From positions 74,294 through 138,293 of the forward strand of contig JAUNBL010000001.1 of assembly GCA_030527235.1 (NCBI GenBank): 64,000 nt of DNA, in the 5' to 3' direction. The stretch comes from Clostridia bacterium. GTDB taxonomy: Bacteria; Bacillota; Clostridia; UMGS1883. Below the pieces are notes generated by a model. It was given only the letters and a program-made list of their open reading frames with translations, had not been told where the DNA came from and made no database searches. Shown one piece after another: positions 1,000-24,200 of the stretch. The stretch's first letter is position 1, and each line of letters begins with the position of its first letter. A program made the position numbers and the translations under genes.

Positions 1000-1485
1000 T
1001 TATTTTTTATATTCCCTGCAAAGACCTTCCAAGAGAATAAAATCATTACATCTTTTTGCAAGTCCCGTTGAATTTCCGTGTTCTATCTTATGCTTATAGA
1101 CATTTGAAGCATTTTTCCGTATCTTTTCTTGAATAGACTTTATATAACGATATTCAGACAGCAACAAAGCTCTGTAATGCTCATCCTTTTCCTTGCTGAT
1201 GTCAACATAGAAACATTCCGAAAGAGGAACGGGAAACATATTATTTAAGTTGATAACAGCATATTTTTTAATCTTTATAAAATCAATCATTTCAGACATT
1301 TTATTATGCTTCGGCTTAAAAGACGATAAAGGTGCAAAATAATCGAAACCGTTTACTTGCAAAACAATCCCTATATATTTACGCTCATTTTGTTGTCCTG
1401 CCTGCTTGTTGTGAAACAAATGCGGAGCGTGAGGGGATAAATAATCTATGTACTTATTTTCTATTTGATAAAACCTTATATCCAT
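1000..1485 (-). CDS. Type III toxin-antitoxin endoribonuclease, ToxN/AbiQ family
   Basis: A 161-residue protein with the layout of ToxN/AbiQ toxins. An N-terminal strand (RFYQIENKYIDYL) is followed by YIGIVLQVNGFDYFAPLSS and then F-K-x-K-H, the stretch carrying the family's conserved Ser and Lys of the active site. Then come INLNNMFPVP, a YRALLLSEYRYIKSIQEKI helix and a C-terminal CNDFILLE segment. Family members cut RNA at A-rich sites and are held inactive by a repeat RNA encoded just upstream; that RNA is visible here at 1531-1645. The start is ATG 1485 behind AAGGAG. The gene has its own promoter and terminators and sits between maff2 and the trbL-like gene of the transfer operon. Likely roles are element maintenance or abortive phage defence; this part is inference. 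Confidence 0.88.
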   Translation of the reverse strand: MDIRFYQIENKYIDYLSPHAPHLFHNKQAGQQNERKYIGIVLQVNGFDYFAPLSSFKPKHNKMSEMIDFIKIKKYAVINLNNMFPVPLSECFYVDISKEKDEHYRALLLSEYRYIKSIQEKIRKNASNVYKHKIEHGNSTGLAKRCNDFILLEGLCREYKK

Positions 1486-1838: not shown

Positions 1839-2154
1839 CGAGTATATCTTTCGCAAATGCAATGATGACGCCGCCGAAGAAGGTCAGAAATCCGTTTGCT
1901 CTCTGCGATGCGTCGTGCGATTTAAGCGACAGACCTATCTGCACGACACCAAAGCCGAGCAGGATTAGTCCGATAGCCTTAATTGCCGAGAAGATAAAGT
2001 CTGAAAGGCTGTTTATCGTTCCAAGCGGGTCAGCGGCAAAAACCGTTCCCGTGAGTGCGGTCATCATAACCGCAAGCACCGTAAGTACAAGTTTAGCCTT
2101 GCGGAGAATTTTCTGTGCTTTCGCTATTTTCTGAATTGTTTTCTGATTTTTCAT
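1825..2154 (-). CDS. Maff2 family mobile element protein (VirB2/TrbC pilin-like)
   Basis: A 109-residue protein with a basic N-terminus, a cleavable-looking signal sequence ending near FAADP (about residue 41), and two hydrophobic segments near 53-75 and 88-106. This is the size and shape of VirB2/TrbC-type conjugative pilin subunits. The sequence matches the Maff2 family found between virD4 and the VirB6-like gene in Tn1549-type ICEs. The ATG at 2154 follows TGGAGGT and lies 62 bases inside the end of the virD4-like gene, so the two are translationally linked. The pilin role is inferred from topology and place. Confidence 0.85.
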   Translation of the reverse strand: MKNQKTIQKIAKAQKILRKAKLVLTVLAVMMTALTGTVFAADPLGTINSLSDFIFSAIKAIGLILLGFGVVQIGLSLKSHDASQRANGFLTFFGGVIIAFAKDILDMII

Positions 2155-3982
2155 TGTCTGTTACCTCCAAAATTTCAGTTTGTTTTGTTTGTGGGTTTGC
2201 AAAATCGAATGTTTTTACATTGTCCCCGTCAACCTCCAATAGCTTGATATTTGATAAATCCTCGTTTATGGTAAAGGATAAATCATTTCGTAAATATTTT
2301 TCCGACTTGCTGTGCTTGTACGGCACAGCTTTTCCGTCTGCGGTTTTTGCAATATTCGGGTGCGACAGTATATCGAATTTTTTATCAATTAACGGTCGCT
2401 CGCCACGAATAAAGATAAGAGCGTTGCTGTTGTCAAGCAATCGTACCTCATCAAGCGTTAAAAGCTCACGCCCGGCGTTTTGGTAATTGGTGTTACTGCT
2501 GCCGTGCTGACCTTTTGTAATACCTCTTGTGCGTGTGTCAATGGTTTCTTTTCCGAGCATTTTTGAAATATACTCGTGTGTGCTTTGCTCGTTGCCGCCG
2601 AGGTAAAGCAGCGTATCACAGTTACCCGTGATGTTTTCCCAGCTATCCTTGAATAATGCTTTTAACTGTGCCATATTCTGAATAATAATTGATACCGAAA
2701 TACGCCGTGACCGCATTGTTGCAAGTATGCGTTCAAAGTTATCGGGCAGAGCGACATTGGCAAACTCGTCCATCACGATATGCACTGGGATAGGCAGCTC
2801 GCCGCCGTGATTATTGTCCGCATTGAAATACAACGCTTGAAAGGCTTGTGTATATAACATTCCGACAAGGTAATTAAAGGAATTGTCATTGTCGGGAATA
2901 ACGCAAAATATGGCGCGCTTGCGTTCGCCGAGAGTGCCTATATCAAGATTATCGTATGAAGTCATTTTCGCTATCTCCGGCAAGTTAAATGCCGCAAGCC
3001 GCACCGCCGCTGAAATCAATATACTTTTCGCCGTTTTGCCGCTTGCCTGTTTGAAAATTTTATATTGCCGTACCGCAATATGCTCCGGCTTTTCGTCCTC
3101 CAAGCCTTGAAAAAGAATATCCACAGGGCTTTGATAGCCGCTTTCGTCCTCATCTTCAACGGTTGCTGCGTTTTCGATTAAAAACATCAGCATTTCAAAG
3201 GTCTGTTCTTCGGGCGGAGCTTCGTGCAGAAGATAGAGCATCAAGGCACTATCAAGAGCAATTTCGGATTTTTCCCAAAACGGGTCGTTCTGCGATGCGT
3301 TTTTCGGTGTTGTATTCTGAATAAGGTTTGAAATCAGCTTTATAACATCTTCATCTTTGCGGATATACACAAACGGATTATATCCGTCCGAGTTTTCCGG
3401 CTCGATTAGGTTGAACACCTTAATATCATAGCCGTTTTCGATGAGTAACGGTGCAATGCTTCGGAGCATTTCGCCCTTTGGGTCTGCGACTATGAAAGAA
3501 GTGTTGCACTGCATTAAATTCGGTTTTGCGTAAAACCGGGTTTTTCCGGCGCCGCTGCCGCCGACCACAAGCACATTGAGGTTTCGTCTGTGCTTTTTTG
3601 CGTTTAAGCCAAGCCGCATATTTTGAGATAGAATGATGTTTTTATAGCTGTCCTTATCCATATACCGCTTGACAACGCTTTTGACATTGCCCCAGCGAGC
3701 CGAGCCGTGTTCCTCGCCCGGTCGGCGGTTTTCTCTTGACGAAAAATACACGCCGATACCCATTGCATACAAAAACAAGAAAATGAGTACGGCTTTTAAG
3801 CTATACTCATTCAATGTGATGTGCGTAGGGTTATTCATAGCGGCTGTCAAACGGTCAAGCAATTCAAACAGCTTTATATTCTCCTCATAGCACCCGGCAA
3901 CCATTAAGGCAAGCCATATAACGAATACCGAGAGTATTCCGAGTAGGATATATATTGTCTTTTGATTTTCCTGCCTGTTCAC
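2093..3982 (-). CDS. VirD4-like type IV coupling protein (TraG/TraD family ATPase)
   Basis: A 629-residue coupling protein that brings the relaxase-DNA complex to the secretion channel. Two N-terminal membrane segments lie near residues 8-30 and 62-80. The Walker A motif GGSGAGKT is at about 141-148 and the Walker B-like VHIVMDEFANV near 400; an ALIFIRGERPL segment lies late in the protein. The acidic, Ser/Asn-rich tail is variable in the family. The start is a GTG at 3982. It belongs to the VirD4-like group of Clostridia ICEs and is transcribed towards maff2, overlapping it by 62 bases. Confidence 0.92.
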   Translation of the reverse strand: MNRQENQKTIYILLGILSVFVIWLALMVAGCYEENIKLFELLDRLTAAMNNPTHITLNEYSLKAVLIFLFLYAMGIGVYFSSRENRRPGEEHGSARWGNVKSVVKRYMDKDSYKNIILSQNMRLGLNAKKHRRNLNVLVVGGSGAGKTRFYAKPNLMQCNTSFIVADPKGEMLRSIAPLLIENGYDIKVFNLIEPENSDGYNPFVYIRKDEDVIKLISNLIQNTTPKNASQNDPFWEKSEIALDSALMLYLLHEAPPEEQTFEMLMFLIENAATVEDEDESGYQSPVDILFQGLEDEKPEHIAVRQYKIFKQASGKTAKSILISAAVRLAAFNLPEIAKMTSYDNLDIGTLGERKRAIFCVIPDNDNSFNYLVGMLYTQAFQALYFNADNNHGGELPIPVHIVMDEFANVALPDNFERILATMRSRRISVSIIIQNMAQLKALFKDSWENITGNCDTLLYLGGNEQSTHEYISKMLGKETIDTRTRGITKGQHGSSNTNYQNAGRELLTLDEVRLLDNSNALIFIRGERPLIDKKFDILSHPNIAKTADGKAVPYKHSKSEKYLRNDLSFTINEDLSNIKLLEVDGDNVKTFDFANPQTKQTEILEVTDNEKSENNSENSESTENSPQG

Positions 3983-5289: not shown

Positions 5290-7586
5290 TTATTTCACCC
5301 AAGTTTCGGAATTATCGTGTGTGTTTGCAAGGTGTGTGTTGCTTGCCTCTGCTATCGCATAAAACGCCCAATGCAAATTGTTTTTAAGGTCGGTAAACTT
5401 ATTGAGCAACGAAAGATTTTTATTGATATATCCCTCGTCAGCAATTCTGCCGGTTGCTTTGTTTACAACAGTTACAACTTCTGCTCTTGTAATAGCGTTA
5501 TCGCCTTTGAATGAGCCGTCAGCGTAGCCGTTAAGCCAGCCTGCGTGTTTTGCATAGGCAATATCGGAATATGCCCAATAATTTGTTGCAACATCGGTAT
5601 ATTTTACTGTGTATCCGTCCTTTTTAACATCGCTGAACAATGCATCAAAGCGCACCGTCATTGCTACAAATTCCGCACGGGATATGTTTTCGTCCGGCTT
5701 AAAGGTGTTGTTGTCATAGCCCTTGATAATGCCGTATTTTTCGATATATCCGATAAACTTTGAATACCATTCACTTGACTTGACATCTGCAAAGTCGGAT
5801 TTGCCGCTTATCTTTTCGCCTTTCTTTTCGGAAATAAGCCTTGCAAAGATAGCAGCAGCTTCAGCACGGCTCATATTATTGTCCGGTCTGAAAGTGCCGT
5901 CACCATACCCGAAAATATATGCCTTATGCTCTGATGCCGGAAGTATCAGCGTACCGTTTTTATCCGTTGTGCCGTTTGCTGAATTGTTCTTTTTATCCTT
6001 TAAGGTAATGGTAACATCAGCTTTGGAGTTACCTTTGCTGTCGGTTGCCTTAATGGTGTAGTAGTTATCATTTGTCAAATCTGCACCATTCGGAAGTGTC
6101 AATGTAATATTTCCATCTTTATCGGTTGATTTTGAAACAGATACAGTTTTGCCGTTTTTGTCAGTTACTGTAATATTTGTGATATTGGAACTGATGTAGC
6201 TGCCACCGCTGCTGCCGCCACGACCACCACCACCCGAAGATGAACCACCGCCGGACGATTTCACCGGAAGTGTAACCTTACCGTTTGCATCGGTTGTGCC
6301 TGTCTTTTCGGTTGCCTTGTCCTTAATGGTAACCGACACACCTTTAACAGCTTTATTTTCTTTGTCGGTAACTGTTACGGTTGTCTGATTTGAGGTAGTC
6401 AAAGTCTTATCATCGGGAAGTGTAACGGTAATTTTGCCGTCTTTAATCTCGATAAAGGCATTTTCGATTTTGCCCTTTGTGTCTTCAACCGTGATGTTGT
6501 ATTCGGTTTTGGTTTCCTCGGTATCGGTCTTGCCATCACCGTCCGTATCTTTGCCGGGGATAGTTTCGGAAATATCCGTTTTTCCGTCCTTATCCGTTAC
6601 ACCCTCATTTGACGGTGGAAGAATAATAACTCCGTCTTTATCGGTAACACCTGTCAAAGACTTTGTTTCCGTACCCTCAAAAGCTTTTTCGGAAACAATA
6701 ACACTCATATCCTTTACAGCCGTATTATCTGCCTTATTTGATACGGTTACGATAATTCTGTTCGCATAATCAAACTTTACACCTTCGGGTAATTCAACAG
6801 AAATGTTTTCTGCCGATTTAACGCTGTCGTCCTCATTTTTGATTTCCGCATTATGTTTGATATGTGCCTTTTCAATAGCTCCGACAGCATTTTTCACTGT
6901 TACAATATATCCGTCAACTTCGCCGTAGCCGTTGAAATCGGTAACATCAATGTTTGTCGGCGGCACGGTTGCTTTTCCGTTTTCGTCCGTAACATTGCTT
7001 TCCGTTCTGTCGGATTTGTCTGTGAAAATAACGGTCATATCCTTAACAGGCTTATCCTCACTATCGGTAATTGTTGCGGTAATGCGGTTGCTTATGTCGA
7101 TTAGGCTGCCTTCGGGAAGCATAACATTTATCTGTCCCTCACCGATAGTAACAAAAGCATTTTCGATAGGCTTTGTTTCGTCTGTAATTAAAACATTGTA
7201 GCCGTTGACTTTTGCTTTTCCCTCGCTGTCGGTAATATCCTCCGAAAGCGGCGGAACAACCATTTTTCCGTTTTCATCAGTTTTGTCTGTCAAGCTCTTT
7301 TCAGCCTTATCCGAAACGGTAACGGAAATGTCTTTCAAAGGATTTCCGTCTTTGTCGGTTACGGTTACTGTAATACGGTTTGAGTAGTCAATACTTGTTC
7401 CGTCCGGCAATGCTACAGAAATTGTGCTGTCATCATTCAGCTTTACAAAAGCGTTTTCGATAGCTCCGCTCTCGTCATTGACAAACACATACATTCCGTC
7501 AATGCGTACTTTACCCGTATCGTCCGTAAAACCATCTTTGGCGGTCGGCAATGTGATTTTTCCGAACATATCGGTTACGCCTTTTT
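5290..7586 (-). CDS. Surface protein, 3' exon: Ig-like repeats and three SLH domains
   Basis: The downstream exon of the gene split by the group II intron, contributing 765 codons and the stop. It holds four to five repeats of about 115 residues with the pattern IENAF-x-LPDG-NRITVTV-D-GK-x-LPP, likely Ig-like or carboxypeptidase-regulatory-like folds. A Gly/Ser-rich hinge (GGGSSSGGGG) follows, then three S-layer homology domains marked by GYGDGTFRPDNNMSRAEAA, GYDNNTFKPDENISRAE and GYADGSFKGDNAITRAE. SLH domains bind secondary cell wall polymer and would hold the protein on the surface. Without splicing the only start would be the internal ATG at 7569, which lacks a signal peptide. It is probably an adhesin or aggregation factor carried by the element; that role is inferred. 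Confidence 0.85.
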
Positions 7587-7635
7587 GTTGCGATAGGTAA
7601 GCTATTGATATTATCTCTTGCTTTTCCCCCGCCTA

Positions 7636-7669
7636 ACACTGTACGTGCGACTTTCACCGCATACAGCGT
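7636..7669 (-). ncRNA. Group II intron domain V
   Basis: A 34 nt hairpin on the minus strand with lower stem ACGCTGT/ACAGTGT, upper stem TGCG/CGCA closing around gtGAAAgt, and the two-base CG bulge before TACAGTGT. This is the catalytic core of group II ribozymes. The triad at the base of the stem reads CGC rather than the commoner AGC. Confidence 0.85.
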
Positions 7670-7730
7670 CCCATCATTTTACTTTAACTAATTGTCCTAT
7701 GTATTTGCGTTTTAATCATATTTATTCGTG

Positions 7731-9584
7731 TCATTTGATTTCTTCTAATCCTGCTAACACTCGCAGCTTGTTGAGTTTTTTCATTCCATTTTCGGATATT
7801 TTCAGACCTTTTACATATTTTGAGATGACATCTGGACTTTTTGCGTGAATTAAAATGTGAATATCTTTTGTAACAAATATAAGATTTTTATATGTATCAT
7901 CTCCGCCAAGCTCTCTCGGCATTTTATGATGACATTCCATATTTCCTATTGTTAGTTTCTGACCTGTTATTGCACATTTTCCGCACTGTCCCGTGTATAG
8001 TGAAATTCTATTATCATTGTATTCTATTGACATATTTCTTGCTGGATTTTCAAGCATATATCTCATAATATCAATGTCAATATCAAAAGATTTATATATT
8101 TCATTTCTACCTTCAGGAGTGTATGAGCTAATGCTTGCCTTAATTCCTCTGGGCGTTCTGTATTTGCAGTATCCAATAGGAATGATTGGCTTGTCCATTA
8201 ACCACCTTACTTGTTTTGATTTGCCATATCTATGTAAAAGAAATTTACTGTCAAATTTACCCTCTTTACTTGTATTGAGCCTATTTTGCATTGTATTTCT
8301 GACTTCAAATTGTATCTCTCTAAAATCTTCAAAAATATGCGTTGCTATACAGTAATAATTTTGAATACCTATTACTGTTGAGTTGTATTTACAAATTCTT
8401 GTGAATAACTGCATATCATTTTCGGGCTTTTGAATTGCTTTGATTTGTTCTTTTAGCTTTTCTTTTGCCCTTAGACGAGCCTTATCACACATCTTTGTTT
8501 TTGCCACGTTCTTATTCGATTTTTCCCTAAGTTTCAATTTGAAGCCAAGAAATTCACTGTATTTTCTTTTGAGATTCGTTATACCTGTTTTATTTTCTGA
8601 CACTTCTAATTTCAATCTGTGATTTAACCATTGGGTTGTTGCGAATTTAATTTTGTTCGCATCACTTCTTGTTTTACAGAATATCTTGAAGTCGTCAGCA
8701 TATCTAACAATATACATTTCTTTAAGGTTTGTAGTTCTTAAATCTCTGTATTCGTGCGCCAAATCTCTAACTCCTGATTTTCTTATTTGCATTTGCGGTG
8801 GTTTTTTCATTACTTTCCACTGCAAGTGCCATTGTGAAGCAATCCACCAATCCAATTCGTTTAATACAACATTTGCCAATAAAGGTGATAATATACCACC
8901 TTGCGGTGTTCCTTTTTGTGGGTATTCAACCGTTCCGTCAGGTAATAAAACTGGTGCTTTTAGCATTTGTTTTATTACTTGTATCAACTTTGTGTCGGTA
9001 ATGCCTAAAGTCCATAGTTGCCTTAATAGTTTTCTGTGATTGACATTATCAAAGAAGCCTTTTATATCAACATCTACCACATATTGCATATGCGACCGTT
9101 GCATTAGTCTAACACTTTCGGCTATTGCATTTTCAGCACTTCGGTTAGGTCTAAATCCATAAGATTTTTCATAGAACTTTGCCTCACAAATTGGTTCAAG
9201 GATTTGCAAAATACATTGTTGTATTATCCTATCTTCAATACAAGGTATTCCAAGAGGTCTTTTCTTTCCGTTTGGTTTTGGAATTTCAACTCTTTTTACC
9301 ATTTTGGGATGGTAGTTTTGCAACTTTCGCTGTATGTATGCCAAGAACATTTCTTCACTCATATTTTTAAAATATTCAATGTTTTTCTTGTCCGTTCCGG
9401 CAGTGTGACTACCCTTGTTTGCTTTTATAGACCTATATGCAAGTTTTATGTTGTTAGGTGATGTTATTAACTCCATTAAGTTATTGAAGTTATTTCCCTT
9501 TGAACTTTTTGCATACAATTCATCTTGCAAAATCTGCATATCATAATAATTTGCGATTGTTGCCTTATGATTTTTCACATTCAC
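7731..9584 (-). CDS. ltrA: Group II intron reverse transcriptase/maturase with HNH endonuclease
   Basis: A 617-residue intron-encoded protein. The reverse transcriptase domain spans about residues 60-380, with GIPCIEDRIIQ, YGFRPNRS, DIKGFFDNV, GTPQGGILSPLLAN and the catalytic YADD in VRYADDFKIF. A maturase (X) region follows. The C-terminus carries an HNH-type nuclease: CGKCAITGQKL, then ECHHKMPRELGG and NLIFVTKDIHILIHA. Together these allow intron RNA splicing and retrohoming. The start is GTG 9584 behind AAGGAG; an ATG upstream is followed at once by a stop. No frameshift or stop interrupts it. Confidence 0.95.
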   Translation of the reverse strand: MNVKNHKATIANYYDMQILQDELYAKSSKGNNFNNLMELITSPNNIKLAYRSIKANKGSHTAGTDKKNIEYFKNMSEEMFLAYIQRKLQNYHPKMVKRVEIPKPNGKKRPLGIPCIEDRIIQQCILQILEPICEAKFYEKSYGFRPNRSAENAIAESVRLMQRSHMQYVVDVDIKGFFDNVNHRKLLRQLWTLGITDTKLIQVIKQMLKAPVLLPDGTVEYPQKGTPQGGILSPLLANVVLNELDWWIASQWHLQWKVMKKPPQMQIRKSGVRDLAHEYRDLRTTNLKEMYIVRYADDFKIFCKTRSDANKIKFATTQWLNHRLKLEVSENKTGITNLKRKYSEFLGFKLKLREKSNKNVAKTKMCDKARLRAKEKLKEQIKAIQKPENDMQLFTRICKYNSTVIGIQNYYCIATHIFEDFREIQFEVRNTMQNRLNTSKEGKFDSKFLLHRYGKSKQVRWLMDKPIIPIGYCKYRTPRGIKASISSYTPEGRNEIYKSFDIDIDIMRYMLENPARNMSIEYNDNRISLYTGQCGKCAITGQKLTIGNMECHHKMPRELGGDDTYKNLIFVTKDIHILIHAKSPDVISKYVKGLKISENGMKKLNKLRVLAGLEEIK

Positions 9585-10334
9585 ATATACATCATCTCCT
9601 TACGGAGTATGACAATTTCTATTGTCCTACTCGACTTTGTGAATTAGTACATAGAATTTAGTCTTTGTAAAATGACTTGTGGCTATCCCTCCACTATGTT
9701 ATCCATAGTTTCAACGGTACTGTGCCACTACCTTCAATTAGATAAAATTGAGTTCCCTCGACTTCCTTTGTTCAATTAGAGTCGTTTCCTCAATAACACT
9801 CCCTTGTAATAGGTTTGTTGATGAGTGTTCTAACCTTACCACGTTCCAATAATTCTATCATTAGTCATACTTAGGTGCTTCCTATGAGCCTGATTGCTTG
9901 ATTGTGCCTCTAACACAATAAGGATTTTCATAACATCGAGTTTTACTCACCCTCACAATCACTGCATTTAGCAGTATGCACATTTCTATACATTCGACTT
10001 ATAGACCCGTACATTCAGAAGTTCGTCAGATATTCCTATCATTCTCACCATATATGACCGACACCCGACCTATCATACCCTCGACCACCTCTGGTTCGCA
10101 TTTCCTCAGCATTTTCTGTTAGGGGGTACTCTCAGCCTTACTTCACCGAGCTTCGCACCTTAGTTGTATTACACCAACTAACGCACGTCGGAGTATCAGT
10201 GCAGGCGTTTCAAGGCGTTACTCTCTCATTCCACCTGTCAAATTATTAGTTCTCCTAATTTTCCTCATATTAAATTGTATATATAACTGAGGTTCGATTA
10301 GTGCGTAAGCTTTTCACTTACGAACGTGTCGCAC

Positions 10335-13300
10335 CGATGTAGTCCGCATCTCCGAGCGTTATAACCGTAACGCCCTGCTGCGGCTGTCCGTGCTGGTCGG
10401 TAACAGTTATAATAACGGGATATTCACTTGTCGGCTTAATGCCGTCCGGCAAATCAACAACAATATTGTTGCTCTCGCCGATGTAAACCTCGCAATTCGG
10501 AATAACGACATTCATTTTGTCGGTAGCCTTTACGACAAATGTGTTTTTCTTATCCTCGTCATCTTTGCCGACCGTGCCGCTGTTATCACCGGTAGAGGTT
10601 TTGTTGTTCGGAACTTTAAGCTGACCGTTTTCATCTGTTTTACCTGTTGCTGCGTTATTGTTTACATCATAGATAAAAATCTGCAACTCCGATTTCGGCT
10701 GCTGTGAATCCGTGTTAATTGCAGTTATAATGGTTTGGTCTGCATAATCAAGCAGTCTGCCGCTTGGCAATTTGATAGTTACATTATCATTGATGTCAAT
10801 GCTGATTTCACTATCAAAAATCGGTTTCCCGTTTGCGTTGGTTACAAGAATAGAAAAATCTCCGACTTTGGAATTACCGTCCTCGTCCGTGCGATCTTTC
10901 TCTACAAGCTGCGGAATTGATGCTCTTGAAAGCACCTCACCGCAAGTCAAGCACTCAATATGTTTTTCTCCGGCGTGTTCGATAGTAGCAGGCTCGTCAA
11001 TTATCCAATCGGACGGATTATGTCCCGTCATATCCTTGTAATCTGCCGTATATGTTTTACCGCAGTTTTCGCAAGTGTAGACGGTATATCCGGAAGCCGT
11101 ACAAGTCGGCTCGGTTACATCAGCAATATAACTGTGATTGATTTTATCGGTGTAATCGCTGATATATTTATAATCACAGTTTTTACACTCATACACCGTA
11201 TATCCGAGAGCCGTGCAAGTCGGAGCAGTAACGGTCTTTTTATAATCGTGCGCCGCCTTATCTACATAATCAGCCTTATAGCTATCTCCGCAGCTTTCAC
11301 AGGTGTAAATTGTATATCCCATTTCTGTGCAAGTGGGTGGAACTACGGTTTTATTGTAGGTGTGCTTTTCACAGTCGGTTAAATCGCCGATATACTCCTT
11401 GCCGCAGTCGGGGCAAGTATAAACGGTATAACCGTGTTCGGTGCAAGTTGGCGGAATAACCTTTTTGTCATAATTATGTTCTGTCTTATCAGTATAATCC
11501 GCAACATAGGTATCACCGCAGTCGGCACAAGTGTAGGTTGTAAATCCAAATTCCGTACAAGTCGGGTTTGTAATTTCTGCTTTGTAATTATGAGAGAGCT
11601 TGTCTGTATAATCTGAAATAAATTCATCATCACAGTTTTTACAAGTGTATGTTGTGTATCCCATAGCCGTACAGCTCGGAGCAGATACGGTCTTTTTGTA
11701 ATCGTGTTCTGCCTTATCGGTGTAATCGCCAACATAGCTGTCATCACAGTTATCGCATTTGTATTCTGTATAGCCCATAGCTGTGCAAGTCGGAGCAACT
11801 ATCTTTTCGGAATAGCTGTGTCCTTTCGGAAGTGCTAATACCGTACCACACTTTTCACAGGTTTGCGGCTCTGTGCAAGTAGCAGCCTCGCCGGGTGTGT
11901 GTCCCGTTGCAGATTCCGCTTTAATCATCTTTTCTTTACAGCCTGCATTGGTGCAGTGATACTCAATTACACCGTCTGACGTACAGGTAGATGAAGTTAC
12001 AGAATGACCTCCATCCCAATTATGACCTGTCGGCTCTGTGTAATCCGATACAAATGTCTGTCCGCACATAGTACAAGTTGAGGTCGTATAGCCTTTATCG
12101 GTACAGGTCGGCTCTTTGGTGATACGCTCATAGGCGTGTGAAATAATCGGTGTCATATCGGTTATATATGAGTTGCCGCAGATTTCACAAGTATGATTTG
12201 TATAACCTGTCATTCTGCAAGTAGGCTGTACTTTTTCTGTCTTGTATTTATGCTCGCCGACGGGAGTGGTTTCCTCATAAAAGCTGCCGCACTTGTCGCA
12301 AAGGTTTAATTTCAAACCACCCTGTTTACAAGTAGCTTCTCTTATGGTGATTGCCTTGTAATTATGCCCGGTTGCCTTTGTGTAATTTCTCTTATCGAGA
12401 TTTCCGCAGCCATCGCACTGCCAGCGTTCATAACCGAGGTTATCGCAAGAGGGAGCAACGGTTTCAAGGTAGCGGTAATCGTGTTCGTGCTTTTCGGGAA
12501 GTACGATTATTGTACTGTCATCGTCTTTCTTATCCTCCAAAAGCCACACATACGATACACCGTTTTCAACCATTGTTTCACCGTCGTATTTATAACTGAT
12601 TTCATAGTACACGGGGTAATATCCGGCTTTGGTGTAATTCGGTGCGGAGGTCATATAACAGTCGGAGGCGGTTTTGCCGTAACGGATTTTTGTATGCACA
12701 CCGCTGTCGGATAAATCGGATACGCTTACCGTATGTGCGTCACCGTCCGCCGTTCCGTAATAAGAAGATACAACCGACTTTGCCGCAACATATTCGCTTG
12801 TGGTATAGCCGCAGTCATCGCACTTTTCCGTGAGATAAAAGCGGTTGTTGCCGATCTGTCCGTCAATCGTGCTTGTAAGGTCGTGCGACTCTTTCTTGAT
12901 ATTAGCCTTTGCATAAGTTCCTTTGCAGAATTGGCAGTATTCGCCCTTCTTTAATACGGTTGTGTGCTGATGTTCGTCATACAACTCGTAAGTCGTATTA
13001 TCAAAGTCGATAAAAAAGTTGTGGTCGCAGGAGTTCAAGCCATAAACATTGTTGTTGAAGTTATATGCTCCCGAACCGTCAACGGAGTTAATTGTGCCGC
13101 AAGTCTGACACACAGACTTTGTGTAATGATACCCCGTATAGCTTGCATCCACGCCGGGAGTGCCGCTGTCCGTGTTACCTTTTTTCTTGCCCTCAAGGTC
13201 ATAACCGTCTGACCACTTAACACCGTGATTCATAGCCGTCTGTCCCGATTTGGTGTATTCGGGTACACGGTAGGTTAAAACAGTTGTGTGCTTATTGCAT

Positions 13301-13506
13301 ACCGGACACCACTGTGTTTCATAGGTTACGGTTGCGTTCATATCAAGTTCATTGGTTCTGTTATTTGTTTTCAGCCAATTATCCGCAGGATCTACATATG
13401 TGTTGCTTTGTGCCGCAAAGACCGACACGGGGAGTGTGCCTGCAACAAGAATAACTGCAAGCAGCATTGAAATAACCGATTTCATAGAAAAATGTTTGGT
13501 TTTCAT
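10335..13506 (-). CDS. Surface protein, 5' exon: signal peptide and Cys/His repeats
   Basis: The upstream exon supplies 1,057 codons plus one base. It begins with a signal peptide ending near VSVFAAQ (about residue 32). From about residue 340 there are some 13 tandem repeats of about 38 residues: H-x-Y, then PTCT-x-GYT-x-YTC-x-x-CG, then DYTD. Each repeat has three Cys and one His and could bind metal or be held by disulfides. An Ig-like region follows, in which the intron lies. Without splicing, translation runs five residues into the intron and stops at 10318, giving a protein with no SLH anchor. The gene lies between pcfB and a small zinc-ribbon gene. Exact function is unknown. Confidence 0.85.
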
Positions 13507-13607: not shown

Positions 13608-14294
13608 TTACTCTCTGCCTTTCCGGTTTTTCTTTTTGCGTTTTTTCTGCTGCGGCTGCTTGTGTTGTATAGCCTTTTCCTTTTCGGGAGCAGGCTTTTT
13701 CTTTTCTTCCAAATCAGCCTTTATGTCCTCAATCTTCTTTCTGACCGAGGGTTTAGTACCGTTGCCCGTTTTTGCCGTATCCTCGAATGAGATAGATTTG
13801 CTCCCGTGCGGATTTTCGTTTGTTTTCTCCGCACGGGACGGACGGTTTTTTGAGTTTTCGTCCTTTGTATTATCCGATGTAACCTCCGTCTGTTCGGGTG
13901 CCTCCGGCTCAATTTCGTGTTCCGTTGCGGAATACCCGAGCTTTTCCATAATGTAATTAAGCCGGGGTATATCGTCTTGAAATGCGATAACATCGCATAA
14001 GCCGTTATCATTTGTCTTGTCTGCAACAGGACGGTACATTATCCCGTAATTTTTTGCTTCGGCATTGAATTTTTTGAGGTCAGCTTCTTTTATCTGCATA
14101 ATACAAAGCTGTTTGCCCGTTTTAAGCATTTGCTTTAATTTTGCGACGCCCTCCGTCTTGCCGTCGTCATTTGCAAGTGCCATAACGATTGCTGCAAGGT
14201 TTTTTACACCGAGGGCGGTTAGCTTGACCGCCGATTCGGTCATTTGGATAGCTTCTTTCGCCATTAAATCAGCGACTTCTCCGCTTGTGTTCAT
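13608..14294 (-). CDS. PcfB family (DUF3801) conjugation accessory protein
   Basis: A 228-residue protein. The N-terminal 130 residues match the PcfB/DUF3801 family (DLMAKEAIQMTESAVKLTALGVKNLAAIV, then KQLCIMQIKEADLKKFNAEAKNYGI and PRLNYIMEKLGY). The rest is acidic linker followed by a very Lys/Arg-rich tail. In pCF10, PcfB binds the relaxase and couples it to the transfer channel. Here the gene starts 26 bases inside the relaxase gene, so they are translated together. The basic tail could contact DNA; that is inference. Confidence 0.88.
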   Translation of the reverse strand: MNTSGEVADLMAKEAIQMTESAVKLTALGVKNLAAIVMALANDDGKTEGVAKLKQMLKTGKQLCIMQIKEADLKKFNAEAKNYGIMYRPVADKTNDNGLCDVIAFQDDIPRLNYIMEKLGYSATEHEIEPEAPEQTEVTSDNTKDENSKNRPSRAEKTNENPHGSKSISFEDTAKTGNGTKPSVRKKIEDIKADLEEKKKPAPEKEKAIQHKQPQQKKRKKKNRKGRE

Positions 14295-15633
14295 TTTCTC
14301 TCAACTCCTTGTCTGCCTGTTTCTGCAAAGCGAGCGCCTGCCGTTTTTTCTCGGCAATTTTATACGAATCCTTAAATATTGCTTTGCACAGTCTGATTTC
14401 TTTTCGGAGTTCGTTAAGCTCCGTATTGATTTCTTTCGCTTGGTCTTTGACCTCATCACAACTTTCATCAGTCCTTTCTTCATATAATTTTTTACGCCGT
14501 GTAATTAAAATCTCAACTTCGGCTTCTTTGTCCTTTTGGTATTTCTGCAAATCTTCGCCCGTTTCGATGCCGTGAGAAAACAAAAACTTGAATTGCTTTT
14601 GATAGCGGTCAAACTTAATCATTTCATCACGCATAAAAAACGACACCCTTTGAGGTGTCTGCTTACGCTGAATTTTTTTGAATAAATAGAGGTAGTGAAA
14701 GTAGAGGGCAACAAAGCCTTTTAACTTCTTGCCCTTTACATTTTTAATGTTACCTCTGAATTTGTATTGTTTTTTCGGCATCTCGGACGGTGCAGCCGTG
14801 ATAATTCCGTTTCGGGTTGCGATTATCCTTTCCAAAATCTCCACTTCACTGTAACCATTACCGAGATTATCAAGCCTCATCGGGCGTTTTGCGTTCGGTG
14901 CAATTATTGAGGTGTACTTTATATTCGTACCTTTGCGGTGAATGACAAAACCACGCTTTTTTAAGTTCTGCCAAAACTGTTCCATTGTGTATGAGCATTT
15001 TATGATTTCGTCAATATCACGACGAATACTTCCACGAATGGTTGGTCTGCCTTCTTTTAATGCAAGCCATTCCGCATAGTGCATACCTCGCCTTTGCGGA
15101 TTTTTAATTACCGAAAGACAGTTTTCAATACAAATAGCGTCCGATATTCCTCGAATGTCTATGAAATAGTCCTTGAAATTATTTCGATATTTGTAGCCGT
15201 CCACATAGGATACGGAGTTTATAATCAGATGATTATGCAAATGGGCGTGGTCAAGATGTGTTGCAACAACCACTTCGTATTTATCCGCAAACAAACGCTC
15301 CGCAAGTTCAAGTCCGCATTTATGGGCAACCTCCGGCATTGTTTCAAAATCCTTAAAAGACTGCACCAAATGATATGCAAGCACGGCGTTTTTATGTCCT
15401 GCCTTTCCGAAAAACTCCTGTGTGTCTATCATATCTGCGTATGGGTTATCTGTCGTGCAGTTATATGCTTTGACATAAAGGCAATTTTCGGTCTTGTCCT
15501 CATTTTTGATATATTTGATTACACCCTCTACCGCATCAATGTCGGGTTTTATACTTGTCTTGTCGGGATTGGCGATATAGTTAAGACTTGAATCGAGCCT
15601 TGATTTAACCGTCCATATTTTCGTAATTGCCAT
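14269..15633 (-). CDS. Relaxase/mobilisation nuclease
   Basis: A 454-residue MOB relaxase that nicks at oriT and leads the strand into the recipient. The N-terminus MAITKIWTVKSRLDSSLNYI carries the early motif. The three-His metal site is visible in THLDHAHLHNHLIINSV (about residues 129-145). A long basic and helical C-terminus follows from about residue 270. The ATG overlaps the mobC stop by one base (TAATG), and the 3' end overlaps pcfB. Together mobC, relaxase and pcfB form the DNA processing operon. Confidence 0.93.
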   Translation of the reverse strand: MAITKIWTVKSRLDSSLNYIANPDKTSIKPDIDAVEGVIKYIKNEDKTENCLYVKAYNCTTDNPYADMIDTQEFFGKAGHKNAVLAYHLVQSFKDFETMPEVAHKCGLELAERLFADKYEVVVATHLDHAHLHNHLIINSVSYVDGYKYRNNFKDYFIDIRGISDAICIENCLSVIKNPQRRGMHYAEWLALKEGRPTIRGSIRRDIDEIIKCSYTMEQFWQNLKKRGFVIHRKGTNIKYTSIIAPNAKRPMRLDNLGNGYSEVEILERIIATRNGIITAAPSEMPKKQYKFRGNIKNVKGKKLKGFVALYFHYLYLFKKIQRKQTPQRVSFFMRDEMIKFDRYQKQFKFLFSHGIETGEDLQKYQKDKEAEVEILITRRKKLYEERTDESCDEVKDQAKEINTELNELRKEIRLCKAIFKDSYKIAEKKRQALALQKQADKELRENEHKRRSR

Positions 15634-15935
15634 TATCGGACGCTCCTCACAAGACGCATAATATCGTTTTGCATTTGCAGCACGGTTTCAATTTTATCTT
15701 CCGAAATATACTGCTGTGCATTTGCGATATGTGCTATCTGATTTATGTTGTTTCCGATAGCGTTTATCTCACGAAGCAGTCTTACATATTCATCGGGTGG
15801 ACGGGGGCGAATAATATTGCCCATAATCAGCTTGCGAATATATGGCTCCATTTTTAAGGCACAAGCGGCGGCATTTGTTTTCAGCCTCTTGTGTTCCTGT
15901 TCGGTGAGCCGTACCGATATTTTGATTTTATCCAT
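15633..15935 (-). CDS. mobC: MobC-like relaxosome protein
   Basis: A 100-residue protein starting at ATG 15935 behind GAGGTG; the longer frame lacks a ribosome binding site. An N-terminal ribbon-helix-helix-like segment (KISVRLTEQEHKRLKTNAAACAL) should bind oriT. The later LREINAIGNNINQIAHIAN stretch is typical of MobC, which helps open the DNA around nic. It is the first gene downstream of the candidate oriT. Confidence 0.88.
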   Translation of the reverse strand: MDKIKISVRLTEQEHKRLKTNAAACALKMEPYIRKLIMGNIIRPRPPDEYVRLLREINAIGNNINQIAHIANAQQYISEDKIETVLQMQNDIMRLVRSVR

Positions 15936-15970
15936 TGTTAAAATCACCTCATTTCTTTTAGCCGTGCGGC

Positions 15971-16054
15971 GGGGTATTAGGGGCATTGCCACTAACAAGC
16001 GGGCGTTTTGCCGTCAAAATGCCGTGCTTGCTAATACAAATGCTCACGCATTTG
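15971..16054. other. Candidate origin of transfer (oriT)
   Basis: The stretch upstream of mobC holds nested inverted repeats: GTATTAG (15974-15980) with CTAATAC (16031-16037), CAAGC with GCTTG inside it, and GGCGTTTTG (16002-16010) with CAAAATGCC (16014-16022, one mismatch). A further perfect hairpin CAAATGC/GCATTTG lies at 16037-16054. oriT sites usually lie next to mobC and the relaxase gene and carry such repeats beside nic. The nic site itself cannot be named. Confidence 0.55.
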
Positions 16055-16803: not shown

Positions 16804-17712
16804 TTATCTTTGCATATCATCGTGCTTTTTTGACTTTTCTTTTAATTTATTTAAGGAAAAATCAATGATACGCTCTTTTCTTGCCGTGAGCATTGTTTTG
16901 TAAAACTCCTTTTGAAGCTCTGTTACGGTAGGCGTATTGTCTATAATTTCATAGATTTTCTTCATATCAATACGGCTTGCTATCCGTTTGAGAGCCTTGT
17001 TGCAGTCCGGAAATTTACCCTCCGACAAAAATTTGAAGTAATTTATCTTTTTGCCGTTATAGGTTATAGCAGATAACGGTATATCGAAAATCCTGTGATT
17101 AAGCTCATTTTTGTCACTTAATATCTTCTTCATTAAGTCCTCGTCCGCCTGTGGGTACAGACTGCTGCCGCAATCAAATACCGGGGCGAGCGTTACTTCA
17201 TCGGTAGCGTTGTTATATAAAAATCCCCAATTTCCGTTGTGTCTGTCCCAATTTCCTATCAGAGCGTCCACGATAAACATATCCCAAAACCTTGTTTTAA
17301 GTGTTTCGGAATCCATCGCTGTCTGTTCGTCAATGGTGGACAAAATATCTGCAAGCTCCGTACCGTAACCGTTTCTTTCGGAGTCAATAATGCGGTTTTT
17401 GAGTGATGCAAAATCTTGAAGCGTTATCCCTTGCGAGGTAAAATCCTTGCAGGCAACAACAACTTTTTCCTTGCCCTTGCTTGTGTAGGTTCCGATAACC
17501 GTTTCCTGTACGGGTATTCCCACAGACTCAAAAACCTTGCAGCCGATGTATTCGCTGATACAGCTGTTTGTATAGCTCATTTCCTTATTTATTGTAGGGA
17601 ACGGCGGAAATTTCAGCATATATTGCTCGCCGTTATACAAAACCGAAATTTTACCGCCGTTGGCTCCGGCATAAGTTTTGTTTTTTTGCACCGCATTTGT
17701 AAAGTCTATCAT
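16804..17712 (-). CDS. HipA-like/CtkA-type protein kinase
   Basis: A 302-residue protein with the HipA C-terminal kinase layout found in CtkA. The nucleotide-binding N-lobe contains YMLKFPPFP, with a likely ATP-binding Lys. The catalytic loop is DALIGNWDRHNGNWGFL (about residues 154-170) and the metal-binding segment APVFDCGSSLYP follows. Substrate is unknown. It overlaps the upstream HTH gene by four bases (ATGA), so the two form one operon behind an operator-containing promoter, like hipBA. It could be a toxin of a two-gene system or a regulatory kinase of the element; the sequence does not decide. Confidence 0.78.
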   Translation of the reverse strand: MIDFTNAVQKNKTYAGANGGKISVLYNGEQYMLKFPPFPTINKEMSYTNSCISEYIGCKVFESVGIPVQETVIGTYTSKGKEKVVVACKDFTSQGITLQDFASLKNRIIDSERNGYGTELADILSTIDEQTAMDSETLKTRFWDMFIVDALIGNWDRHNGNWGFLYNNATDEVTLAPVFDCGSSLYPQADEDLMKKILSDKNELNHRIFDIPLSAITYNGKKINYFKFLSEGKFPDCNKALKRIASRIDMKKIYEIIDNTPTVTELQKEFYKTMLTARKERIIDFSLNKLKEKSKKHDDMQR

Positions 17713-18273: not shown

Positions 18274-21200
18274 TTACCTTGCCATAGCGTATTCACGCTT
18301 TTGCTGCGGCGCTTGTGCATCGGAAACATCGGTGTCGATAACATTATCGTCCTTTTTATCCATTTTGAGCAGCGCTTCAACTGCGGCAAGGCGTTTTGTT
18401 TTTTCCTGCAATTCCGCCTCCTGCGGAAACGCCCGTTTTGCTTCAACCTTTGCGGTTTCGTACTGTGTATTCGTGTTTGCAAGCTCCTCTTTGGATATTT
18501 CAAGCCGTTTTTCAAAACCGTCCAAAGCATTGTCGATACGCTGAATATTACCGAACACATCTGTTCCGAGTTCAACCTTGTGCGACAAGCTCCCGACAAG
18601 GGTTACATAGAACAATTTTTGAAAGCTGTCAAAGGAAAGCTCCATAGAAAAACCTCGGTAATCACCGATGTTCACCGGCTCCTCCGAGGTCATTTTCTTG
18701 CAGCGTTCAATAAGAGCATTACCCGCTTTTTCCTTTTCAAAATATCCAAACCCGTCAATCGTCATTGTGTTGAATTTATCCTCAGCCTTCGGATACTGAT
18801 TGACAGTTTCAATATCCTTTTCAAGACCTTTAATTCTTGCTGCGATTTCCGCAATTTGTTTGGGGTAGAATTTCACAACCTTATCTTCGAGGTCGTAAAT
18901 CTGCGACATAAAGGACGATTTTATCAGCTTCAGCTTGGACACTTCCATATCAAGCTCCATTTTCTCCTTGATGTGCGGATTACCTGTCGAGAGCGCCTTT
19001 ATCTCCGCAAAGGACAGGGCGGTTGGGTCAATATCGTCCGCAACTCTGACGGGAGATTTTGAAGTAAATATCTGCGATATAAACTTCTGTTTCTGCTCGA
19101 CGGTCTGCCACATATAAGTGTCAAAGGTTCCTTTGGTTACATAGCGGTAAATATGCACTTTCTCGTTTGTGTTGCCTTGTCTGATGATACGCCCGGCTCT
19201 CTGTTCGAGGTCTGCCGGACGCCACGGGCAGTCAAGGTCGTGCGAGGCATAGAGCAGTTTTTGCACATTTGTCCCTGCACCCATTTTTGAGGTAGAGCCG
19301 AGAAGCACACGAACATCACCGCTTCGCACTTTCTTGAATAATTCATCTTTTTTAACCTCTGTGTTTGCATCGTGAATAAAAGCAACCTCATTTTCGGGTA
19401 TGCCTTTTTGGAGCAGTTTTTCCCGTATGCTGTTATATACCGAGAATGTACCGTCCGATTTCGGTGTAGATAAATCACAGAACAAAAGCTGTGTAGCTTT
19501 TCTATCTGCTGTGTCTTTCCATATATCATACACACGGTTTGCACATACCGATACCTTTGAGGTTTCATCATCGGGGAGCATAGGATTTATCATTCTTTGG
19601 TCGAGTGCCAATTTTCTGCCGTCGTTTGTTATTTTCAGCATATTGTCAACACTCGGATCAACAGTCCTTTTACGCACTTCCTCAGCTCGTTCTCCGAGGT
19701 CTGCCACCATATCCTTTTGGAATTGGGTCGGCTCTGCAACCTCGTTGTGATATTCAACCTCCGGCACGGGCAAATTCAACATATCCGCCGTCTGAATATC
19801 GGCAACCTCTTTGAACATCGCAATGAGTTCGGGCAAGTTAAAGAATTTTGCAAACCTCGTTTTCATACGATAACCACTGCCTTCGGGTGCAAGCTCCATT
19901 GCCGATACGGTTTCACCAAAGGTAGACGCCCAGCTATCGAAGTGCTGCAAACCTCTGTCTTGGAGCGATTTATACTGCAAATACCTCTGCATAGTATATA
20001 ACTCAACCATACTGTTTGATACAGGAGTTCCCGTTGCAAATATAACACCCTTGCCGCCCGTAAGCTCGTCAAGATACTGCGTTTTCATAAACAGGTCGCT
20101 TGATTTTTGTGCTTCGGTTTGGGCAATACCGCCGACATTCCGCATTTTTGTGTAAAGGAAAAGGTTTTTGTAAAAGTGTGCTTCGTCCACAAACACTCTG
20201 TCAACACCGATTTCTTCAAAGGTAACAACATCGTCCTTGCGTTCTTGGTCATTGAGCTTTTTTATCTTTGCTTCAAGCCCACGCTTTGTCTTTTCCATCT
20301 GCTTTACGGTGTAACGCTCCGCATTTTCGGCCTTGGCTTCGGCTATGCCGTTCAAAATTTCATCAAGCTGGTTTTGAAGTATGGCTTTCTGCCGCTCTGC
20401 CGACATCGGTATTTTCTCAAACTGACTATGCCCGATAATGACCGCATCATAATCGCCCGTTGCGATACGACCGCAGAATTTTTTGCGGTTTTTCATCTCA
20501 AAGTCCTTTTTTGTTGCAACAAGAATATTTGCCGCCGGATATAACTGCAAAAATTCGCTTGCCCATTGCTCGGTCAAGTGGTTGGGTACTACAAACAGCG
20601 ATTTATTGCAAAGTCCGAGCCGCCGTGATTCCATTGCTGCCGCAACCATAGTCCAAGTCTTGCCGGCGCCGACTACATGACCGAGTAAAGAATTGCCGCC
20701 GTACATAATTCGTGCAACAGCGTCCTTTTGGTGTTTCCTCAGAGCTATTTCGGGGTTTATTCCGTTGAAGGTTATATGGCTGCCGTCATACTCACGGGGA
20801 CGGATAGAGTTAAACCGAACATTGTAGATTTTACATAAGTCATCACGCCTGTCGGGGTCTTTCCATATCCAATCCTCAAAGGCTTGCTTGATTGACGCCT
20901 GCTTTTGCTGGGCGATGGTGGTTTCCTTGATATTCAGCTTTGCAACCTTGTTACCGTTTTCGTCGTAAATATAATCAAAGATACGCACATCACGCAGATT
21001 AAGCGAATCCTCAATAATTTTGTAAGCGCTGATACGGCTTGTACCATAGGTGTTGGTAGCCTTAACGCCCTTATCGGCGCTCTTGCCTTGAATATTCCAC
21101 TCACCCGTAAGATTTGAATATTTGACCTCGATTTTGCTTTGCGCATAATAATTCGGCGAAAGAAGCTCAAACACAAACTCCTCGATATACTTTTCGGGTA

Positions 21201-24200
21201 TCCAAGTCGTGCCGAGCTTTACGGAAATTTCACCCGGCGTTAAGTCTTTCGGCTGTACCTTTTCAAGATATTCCGCATTGACACGGTATTCGGAGCTGTC
21301 TTTTGAAAACTGCTCCGCTTGACTTAATTTTGCACGAACATTGCCGGATAAATATTCATCGGAGGTTAGGTATTTCGGCTCGCTTTCGGAGAATGTTTCG
21401 TGTTCGGGGTTTAAGAAGATTACACCCTTTAAGTCCGCATAAAGCTCCTGTTCGGTCTTGCCCGACAGTGTTTCCATAAAGGGTATGTCAATTTTCGCCT
21501 TTTCCGCCAATGACACCGCCAACGCTTCATCTGCCGTATCAACCTTTGTTACCTCGTGTTTGGCTCGGATAGTTCTTTTGGTGAACATATCCGCCTTGCG
21601 TTCAAGGTTTCCGTTCTCATCAAGAATTTCCAGAGAACATAAAAGGAAGTAACTGCTGTCCTCCGAAAAGGCAAGAGCATTGCCACGGGAATTGATAAGA
21701 CCGTATTTTTTTGTATAGTCATCATAGAGCGTGTTCAGCTTTGCCTGTTGTGCCTTAATTTCATTATCGGAATAGTTTTCCGTCTGATATTCGATTAAAG
21801 TCCTCACGCAGTCCCGAAGCTCTATCATACCTTTTACTCGGTTTTCAGCCGTTGCGTTCAGCTCAATCTTACGCATAAGGCTGTTTTCTCTGAAATACAC
21901 CTCTCCGTCAACAACCGTAAAGCTGAAATTGCGAACATTCGGGTCTGCCGGGATTGTTATTTCCTCGTCATTTGAAACATCGTCAAATTCGTATTCCGTT
22001 ATGCTTGCGTGAATATTTTGAATCGCACCGTCAAGCTGCTCGGCAAGTGAAATATCCTCATTCGGCTCACAGGTAAGGGCAGGACCGAAAGGACCGCTGA
22101 CCTCTTTGAGTTCGCCCATAACCATATCGGGGTTGTCAAGAAAATACTGATTTATTGGCTGTCCTGTTTCGTGTTGACCGACATTTACCCATTCCGGCAT
22201 AATATCCGTCATACGCTCTCTTTTCTGCAAAAACAAAATATCCGCCGTAACCTCTGTCCCGGCATTTTTCTTAAAGGTGTTATTCGGCAAGCGTATTGCA
22301 CCGATTAAATCGGCTCTTTGAGCTATATATCGACGCACCTTTGAATTACGCTTATCCATAGTGCCGGAGGAGGTGATAAAAGCGATAACGCCGCCCGGTC
22401 GCACCTTATCCAAAGTTTTCGCAAAAAAGTAGTCGTGAATGAGGAAATTATGCTTGTTGTACTTTCTGTCAAGCAGCTTAAAATCTCCGAAAGGCACATT
22501 GCCGATTGCCACATCAAAGAAGCTGTCGGGAAGCTCGGAGTTTTCATAGCCTTGTATCGCAACGGAATTTTTCTGATAAAGTTGTCCGGCAATTCTTCCC
22601 GTAATACTGTCAATTTCCACGCCATACATTTTACTGCCGCTCATACTCTCCGGCATAAGTCCCATAAAATTACCTATCCCACACGACGGCTCCAAGATGT
22701 TACCCTGCGTAAATCCCATATTGGAAAGCGCCTTATACATTGCCTTGATTACAACAGGCGGAGTGAAGTGTGCGGTAAGTGTTGACGCTCTCGCTTGCTC
22801 ATACTCATCGGGGGAAAGAGTGGCGTATAGCTCCTTAAATTCCTCCGACCAATTTTCTTTGGATTCATCAAAAGCGTCCGCAAGACCGCCCCAGCCGACA
22901 TACTGTGATAATATCTCCTGTTCTTCGGGAGTAGCAAGACGGTGTTCAAATTCGAGATTATGAAGTAAATTTACGGCTTCAACATTCCTCTTAAATTTCT
23001 CTTTCGGTGTACCGTAACCGAGTTCATCATTTGTAATTTGAAAATTGCGTCTGTCCGACAACGGTATTTCGGGATATACAACCGTGTTTTGCACTCTCTG
23101 CGGCTTTGCTTTTTGAAATTCTGCCGTAAGCTGCGGTTTTGCCTGCTCTGCAATTATACTCTTGACAAAATCTATGCTCTCACTGCGGAATATGGGAAAA
23201 CCCGTACTGTTTTGAAAGGTTATATCCTTTAATGACACCTTGTTAAAATCAGTATTTACGCTGTCTACAACAAATTTGCGGTCATCAATGGTGAGTTCCG
23301 TTCCGATAAGGTTTTCGGCGGTTTCGGTTACATTATCAATTTGCGATGTTTCCGTCTGTTGTGCTTGTGCAGGCACAACCTTATCCGCTGACAAAAGCCG
23401 TTTATAGTTTCTATCCTCATCAGCAATGACAACATCATATCCGGCATAGAGCAGCTTGTTGACATATTCGTCCGTAATGTGTTTCGGAAAGCCACACATC
23501 GGGTAGCGTGTTCCGTCGATTTCCTTTGAGATTACAGTTATATCAAGCACATCTGCCGCCTTTTGTGCGTCATCTCCGTAGACTTCATAAAAATCACCGA
23601 GTGGAATAAGGGCAACGGTTTTTGAGCCGTTATCGTCTTTGTGAAGCTCTGCAAGATATTCGGAGAACGGCTGCTGCGGTTGATTTTCTTTTTCAAACCG
23701 TTCTTCGATTAAAGCTCTATATAAAGCCATATCATCATCTGTCAACAGGTCGTTTCGACTGTAATCAAGGTTAATTTCAACATAACCGATATGTGACTCC
23801 TTTTCATCATCGGACATTTTTGAAATTCGTGTTTGTATATTTTCATTAACCGAGGTTATTTCCACACCGTAACGAGCTGCATATTTTTTCAGATTTTCAA
23901 CCGTTTCCGCATCATATGCAAGTCCTGTTGAAAGACCGCCGTTTTCGTCAAAGGAAAGTATATCGTTCAGTATATGGCGGTATATTTCATCACCGCTGTA
24001 TATCTCTCTGCCGATTTCCGCTTTCAAAGTGTTTCCTTCAAAAAATGCTTTATTATCATCGGACACAGACTTCAAGAATTTATCAACCGTATTTTCTTCG
24101 TCGGCATCGTGTATAGCGTAAATATATCCGTTATCCGAAAGTATCTCTGCATATTCCTCCAAATCGTATGCCGGAAAGCTGATTGCTCCATCCGACACGG

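Follow-up and report, generated by a model that had tools for sequence, protein, structure and literature searches.

The surface protein encoded in the window (the whole stretch of DNA that was analysed, 64,000 nucleotides) is read here, with a probability of roughly 0.57, as an S-layer-anchored fibrillar protein whose Cys/His repeats would form the stalk of an ICE conjugation module, with a Zn2+ ion at each repeat junction. Unit count, split gene, domain order, gene neighbourhood, ligand bookkeeping and strand couplings are results of the analysis; that a metal is bound, that it is zinc, that the units form a rod and that the protein acts as an adhesin in mating are inferences, which would fit together as follows. 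Each 38-aa unit would fold as a three-stranded antiparallel beta meander, and the units would stack head to tail into a rod. Each junction would hold one Zn2+ on C1 (the Cys of PTC) of unit n and on the His, C2 and C3 of unit n+1; the sequence evidence makes it probable that zinc ions link neighbouring repeats. At the start of the array, a cap His placed two residues ahead of the His of unit 1 (HEH, aa 340-342) would supply the missing ligand, and the last unit would have dropped C1 because nothing follows it; the window protein would then have 14 sites. The C-terminus would be anchored in the wall by the SLH domains, with the Ig-like domains adding length, so that the N-domain would be pushed away from the cell, and the N-domain would then probably contact recipient cells or host surfaces.

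The array is carried by an ORF of 1062 aa at 10318..13506 on the minus strand. A surface protein ending at 10318 was rejected, since a group II intron of 2.7 kb (7587-10334, minus strand) splits the gene while relatives are uninterrupted; the ORF at 5290-7569 is the second half. Judged by its Rfam domains (RF02004 at 10054-10254 and RF00029 at 7587-7671, both on the minus strand), its maturase, its GUGYG...AY type ends (here GTGCG...AC) and the empty site in relatives, the insert is a group II intron. Comparison with uninterrupted relatives showed that the flanks fit an intron running from 10334 to 7587. Two loci read straight through the site, one from Ructibacterium gallinarum (L074), with 95% identity in the best segment, and one from a roe-deer MAG (L076). 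The surface gene would thus consist of 13506-10335 and 7586-5290, with a predicted product of 1822 aa if spliced; single-frame long relatives reach 1740-2164 aa, a few being shorter. Since the gene is interrupted, the full-length anchored protein would need splicing in this strain. In a relative from Monoglobus pectinilyticus (NZ_OY725736.1, L006) the surface gene is annotated as two ORFs with a 4-base overlap, the break lying inside the repeats.

The domain order in uninterrupted relatives is signal peptide, N-domain with CxxC pairs, Cys/His repeats, Ig-like repeats and SLH, and the second gene part is contiguous and in one frame with the Cys/His repeats there. The Ig-like repeats at the end of exon 1 go on, of the same kind, in exon 2. 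The protein shows several marks of a fibrillar adhesin, namely an export signal (a signal peptide recognised by eye), a wall anchor (three SLH stretches) and a stalk of repeated domains (14 Cys/His units and the Ig-like repeats). The N-domain had no Pfam match and no known adhesive domain was recognised in it; its AlphaFold2 model was unusable (pLDDT 40.7). It was matched in 29 of 391 Clostridia genomes, in some only partly. PHROGs gave nothing on the ORF with the Cys/His repeats, and PADLOC gave nothing on the three proteins submitted.

Table 1 Features of the surface gene and of the neighbouring transfer genes (window coordinates)
Feature	Position	Strand	Basis
VirD4-type coupling protein	2093..3982	-	T4SS-DNA_transf E 1e-57
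Small secreted InlB-repeat protein, one HTH...CEC segment	4107..4883	-	Flg_new E 1e-18; segment kept in L074, L076
Second gene part: Ig-like repeats and three C-terminal SLH stretches	5290..7586	-	SLH E 5e-33, Big_1 E 2e-19
Group II intron within surface gene	7587..10334	-	RF02004, RF00029; uninterrupted site in L074, L076
Intron-encoded reverse transcriptase/maturase	7731..9584	-	TIGR04416 E 1e-105, above cut-off; RVT_1
First Ig-like (MG3/Big-like) segments, end of exon 1	10335..10905	-	Weak bMG3 match, below cut-off
Cys/His array, 14 units (aa 342-867), HEH cap aa 340-342	10906..12483	-	Unit table of surface protein; AlphaFold2 of units 8-10
N-terminal domain, ~aa 32-335, four CxxC pairs	12502..13413	-	CxxC at aa 67, 133, 191, 229; conserved in relatives
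Signal peptide, ~aa 1-31	13414..13506	-	By eye from sequence
DUF3801 (PcfB-like) protein	13608..14294	-	PF12687 E 2.5e-23; L006 relative annotated PcfB family
MobA/VirD2-type relaxase	14269..15633	-	PF03432 E 4e-30
MobC/NikA-like relaxosome protein	15633..15998	-	PF05713, PF21983

The initial annotation had counted thirteen Cys/His repeats of about 38 residues. These were confirmed, and a 14th tandem unit, which lacks C1, had been missed. The unit lengths are 39, 38, 38, 38, 41 and 27, then seven times exactly 38, and finally 39 aa. His, C1 and the Cys pair are present in 13 of the 14 units, while the last unit keeps its His and CxxC without C1; the Cys pair of unit 5 is CxxxC and unit 6 is the 27-aa short form. 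PTC stands at C1 in 8/14 units and CxxCG is found in 10/14. The motifs H-x-Y, PTCT, YTCxxCG and DYTD, which had been ascribed to every repeat, hold as a consensus but not literally, occurring in 11, 7, 4 and 4 of the 14 units, respectively. TRF found no DNA-level tandem repeat over the array (0 rows), so that recent duplication of the repeats was ruled out and the copies appear to be old and conserved at the protein level.

The variable positions of the repeat fall between the conserved ligands. This, together with the occurrence of the repeat on LRR_5, dockerin and other surface proteins, is what would be expected if the repeats were themselves a binding surface (for host glycans, mucin or the recipient wall) in which the metal is structural, an explanation compatible with an inter-repeat site. 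It is nevertheless considered unlikely as the main function, though it fares best among the alternatives: repeat number is variable, with 8 to 23 HMM matches in long ICE-type ORFs, as would be the case for a stalk, and the array has the N-domain on one side and the Ig/SLH part on the other.

The proposed inter-repeat site predicts that every junction carries one metal, that arrays open with a His or Cys cap and that they close with a unit lacking C1. Since the chain order (His, C1, CxxC, His, C1, CxxC) allows several groupings of ligands, the ends of arrays are what tell them apart. In a first set of 61 proteins, with one first and one last unit per protein, C1 was present in 51/57 first, 424/434 internal and 7/57 last units, and a His or Cys at position -2 of the unit His was found in 37/57 first, 14/434 internal and 0/57 last units, a minority of the starts thus being without a cap. 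This tally leaves out units without His and proteins with fewer than two units. Arrays thus tend to have a spare ligand at the front and no C1 in the final unit, as needed if the site consists of C1(n) and the His, C2 and C3 of unit n+1. Over the junctions and starts of the same set, 50 of 86 places had a cap where C1 was missing before them, compared with 5 of 476 where it was present. There were 14 such places without C1 inside arrays, of which seven had a spare ligand and seven had none; four of those seven ligands came from one protein group (CAH, CTH), one from elsewhere, and two were really the starts of lipoproteins. A His at -10 of C2 in an N-domain unit was considered as a C1-to-His swap and dropped, because it could equally be the unit's own His.

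C1 and the next His are also linked. Among 542 CxxC-anchored units (from 591 array units, after short and duplicate units had been dropped) both were present in 430, both absent in 70, C1 alone was present in 2 and His alone in 40; among 102 cluster representatives the corresponding numbers were 76, 16, 1 and 9. As expected for a zinc domain, the four Cys/His ligands are thus kept or lost together, with exceptions. Units in the first set are not independent, because about half of the proteins (31/65 ORFs, by motif) are homologous ICE-type proteins.

A held-out set of 20 further loci had not been used in forming the rule. The original parser split arrays at odd Cys spacing and so created false first and last units; with it, C1 was found in 17/31 last vs 100/106 internal units, the cap in 3/29 first vs 2/106 internal units, and a cap in 5/33 places without a preceding C1 vs 0/125 with one. 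A later parser defined a single first and a single last unit for each protein and allowed wider Cys pairs. With this parser, 17 held-out proteins had C1 in 4/17 last vs 135/140 internal units (P 5e-12) and the -2 cap in 3/17 first vs 3/140 internal units (P 0.017), numbers which are sharper and not fully blind, because the parser was changed after the split arrays had been noticed. Most held-out starts thus had no cap at -2; a cap within four residues was present in 7/17 first vs 12/140 internal units. The last-unit C1 rule is clearly repeated in the held-out loci and the cap rule weakly. Several of the held-out proteins start differently, and six of the loci (L135-L140) carry one N-domain family.

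Redox cross-links outside the cell had been put forward as a function of the repeats. Disulfides, for example from C1(n) to a Cys of the next unit, would give a redox-locked rod in which the His is only structural; the loss of C1 from last units would fit such a bond as well, and the protein looks exported. Against this, of 72 first units 39 had a His and 4 a Cys as the spare ligand, and the repeat His was present in 411 of 413 internal units (in arrays preselected for a His in half or more of the units; the array-end and repeat-His tally omitted 33 of 114 arrays, which did not pass the His/C1 filter). Three Cys per unit would moreover leave one unpaired, and Clostridia are mostly anaerobes. 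Disulfides are therefore held to be improbable, more so than a binding surface.

The fold of the repeat was approached from couplings and models. An AlphaFold2 model of window units 8-10 with 26 further rows had a pLDDT of 96.3 and three strands per unit (3-8, 16-22 and 28-34); the rows were overlapping windows of few arrays, all chosen for exact 38-aa spacing, and the pTM of 0.68 means that the angle between units is not fixed by the model. Couplings in 267 units, from which columns over 85% conserved were omitted, exceeded the shuffled maximum of 2.93 for the pairs 20-31, 8-19, 4-23 and, barely, 2-23; the pairs 15-33, 20-29 and 14-36 lay just under it. These pairs suggest antiparallel pairing of b1 with b2 and of b2 with b3, which would bring the His of a unit next to its C2/C3, and C1 next to the following unit's His. 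Couplings and model together point to a meander of three strands in which C1 lies at one end of the unit and CxxC at the other. Between neighbouring units no coupling was above the shuffled maximum (best 1.48 vs 2.53).

Structure comparison gave few matches. Foldseek against the PDB returned 800 matches, none at E<=0.001. Against BFVD two hits reached that level, one an SLH-domain fragment and the other an LRR protein, in phage-labelled records; both probably contain the same repeat. In a further comparison with the PDB three chains reached a Z of at least 2. The best, 4fum (Z 2.5, rmsd 3.9 over 75 residues), is weak and may mean only a common arrangement, the second is the zinc protein ZPR1 (2qkd, Z 2.3), and the match to 4wve (Z 2.1, rmsd 6.3, 90 residues) is very weak. 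No convincing entry for the repeat was found among the solved structures of the PDB.

The initial annotation had taken the three Cys and one His of each repeat to bind a metal. Metal binding as such is supported by the ligand bookkeeping, but each site most likely draws its four ligands from a pair of adjacent repeats. Zinc sites within one repeat, made up of its own His, C1, C2 and C3 or of C1, C2 and C3 with the next His, would turn the array into a string of zinc ribbons, for which it speaks that 13 of the 14 window units have three Cys and a starting His and that C1 and the next His are lost together. Such sites leave unexplained why last units lose C1 while keeping His and CxxC, and why arrays start with an extra His or Cys; the couplings and predicted strands also separate C1 from CxxC by the length of one strand. 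The array-end pattern speaks against intra-unit models, and they were set aside as the best reading and are regarded as quite improbable. A different metal, or an iron-sulfur cluster, in the sites is very improbable: CCCH sites can bind Fe-S clusters or copper, but it would be unusual to find fourteen clusters outside the cell, and a mixture of CCCH and HHCC sites is typical of zinc. If zinc stapling between repeats is true, the stiffness of the fibre could depend on free zinc, and a zinc-dependent conjugation fibre would, if real, tie gene transfer to metal availability.

The surface gene is encoded among transfer genes. Upstream of it lie the genes for the DUF3801 protein, the relaxase and the MobC protein; downstream lie those for the small InlB-repeat protein and VirD4, followed by weaker TrbC-like and TrbL-like matches, and this order is kept in several relatives. 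Among 44 loci with the N-domain, SLH was found downstream in all 26 loci with room for it (23/23 without three duplicates). A relaxase was present upstream in 14/35 loci (11/32 without the duplicates) and VirD4 downstream in 13/21 (12/20), with VirD4 identities at these loci of 23 to 99%; because the queries were the window proteins, diverged transfer genes escape this count. RepA_N, ParA and ParB genes are found further along, and guaA (GMP synthase, 33802-35334, minus strand) ends beside them at 33802, which suggests that the element sits at the 3' end of guaA. With a long rod between N-domain and SLH anchor beside transfer genes, the protein is best read, by analogy, as an adhesin for conjugation or colonisation; its part in mating would follow from gene position and analogy.

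The source genome carries a second, diverged surface gene, whose start ends at the edge of contig C73 (loci L007 and L009 correspond to C73/C14), and contig C14 opens with a C-terminal part matching this diverged copy. The two contigs seem to represent a second, diverged element of the same type, with the assembly break perhaps lying within the repeats.

Further genes of the region were recorded as well. A ToxN (type III toxin-antitoxin) match (E 3e-46; 1000-1485, minus strand) lies between the TrbC-like and TrbL-like genes; for a ToxI RNA candidate near it, no tandem repeat was found at 1400-2000 and no direct repeat at 1486-1824. Near the relaxosome genes a gene with a HipA-like C-terminal domain was found (16804-17712, minus strand, E 1e-14). 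An ICE protein of 2875 aa (18274-26901, minus strand) has matches to MutS domain I, a SNF2/ResIII-type helicase and an Eco57I-type methylase. A gene of the peptidyl-arginine deiminase (PAD_porph) family (36882-37979, minus strand, E 5e-125) is located near guaA.

An HTHEY/CECG segment had been noticed in the nearby InlB-repeat protein and taken as a hint that the two proteins interact. The segment is present, and no evidence for an interaction with the stalk protein was found. It has His, His, Cys and Cys without a C1 or a next His at the repeat spacing and therefore looks like a lone capped site; it is better read as one isolated, putative capped site. The HTHEY...CECG pattern occurred only in the window, L074 and L076 among 22 sources scanned, and more distant InlB-type neighbours were found in L037, L042 and L009.

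Such a Cys/His repeat had been called uncommon for Gram-positive surface proteins. Within Clostridia this is not so: a two-unit profile found the repeat in 99 of 391 sampled genomes. In 398 genomes drawn from the phylum it was found in 14, seven of them outside the class. An ICE-only distribution was rejected after a search outside ICEs, since LRR_5, dockerin and other proteins carry the repeat too; further non-ICE carriers have Ig-like or FN3-like parts, recognised by eye. Matches to the protein were found in two plasmid and three phage records, and of six pattern matches in viral contigs none was confirmed as the repeat.

Pfam and NCBIfam gave nothing on the repeats of the window protein. 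No convincing family was found on relatives either (five other repeat proteins with Pfam, four of those with NCBIfam). In L086 zf-CHY scored 33.5 bits for the whole protein against a cut-off of 31.3, and in L088 EGF_LMN_ATRN passed its whole-protein cut-off over the repeat region; no single stretch passed in either case, and both passes were judged to be due to chance. Among the entries listed by a literature search, judged by title and start of abstract and with subscription papers mostly outside its scope, none described the repeat or the protein; a search on the ICE at the same level likewise listed none on the element's surface protein, and peptide fragments of the protein retrieved papers that were unrelated by title. 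Since the repeat occurs in 99/391 genomes without a convincing family entry, many surface proteins may carry an unrecognised module. It is a tentative proposal, held at somewhat less than even odds, that the repeats constitute an undescribed and widespread extracellular family of Clostridia which would build rods by inter-repeat zinc stapling, with a His cap and a C1-less end, and which would serve in ICEs as mating or colonisation fibres.

Like zinc ribbons and C2H2 fingers, the window repeat has a CxxC knuckle with His and Cys ligands. A three-unit profile indeed matched C2H2 finger proteins in the PDB (best 2i13, E 1e-8), in gapped alignments resting on the short CxxCG and with no single 2i13 stretch below E 0.06, so that these matches were judged superficial; no Pfam zinc family was found on the window protein. 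Unlike those fingers, the window repeat is exported, and it is modelled with three strands, no helix and predicted sites between units.

The G5-E modules of the staphylococcal proteins Aap and SasG are thin beta rods, and zinc there joins molecules; the title of 4fum speaks of zinc-dependent intercellular adhesion. The likeness of the window protein to these modules (4fum, 4wve) would lie in the rod. In Aap/SasG zinc joins molecules, whereas in the window protein it would join repeats of one chain. Pfam holds a model for G5, which had no match in either half of the surface gene.

Fibrillar adhesins with stalk repeats are long multidomain surface proteins, as set out in the part of the source drawn on here (PMC8286594). 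Like them, the window protein has an N-domain, many repeats and a wall anchor; unlike the adhesins in that part of the source, it has a Cys/His-rich stalk with a predicted metal at each junction, and none of its parts was recognised as a known adhesive domain. PrgB and other conjugation adhesins of Gram-positive plasmids are surface proteins encoded with transfer genes, again according to the part of the source used (PMC6540685). The window protein sits likewise among transfer genes and would plausibly contact recipients; unlike PrgB as covered there, it has an SLH anchor and other domains, and the likeness is one of gene context. The window protein would thus be a fibrillar surface protein of a known sort, built with a new repeat and with an unusual metal arrangement proposed to lie between repeats.
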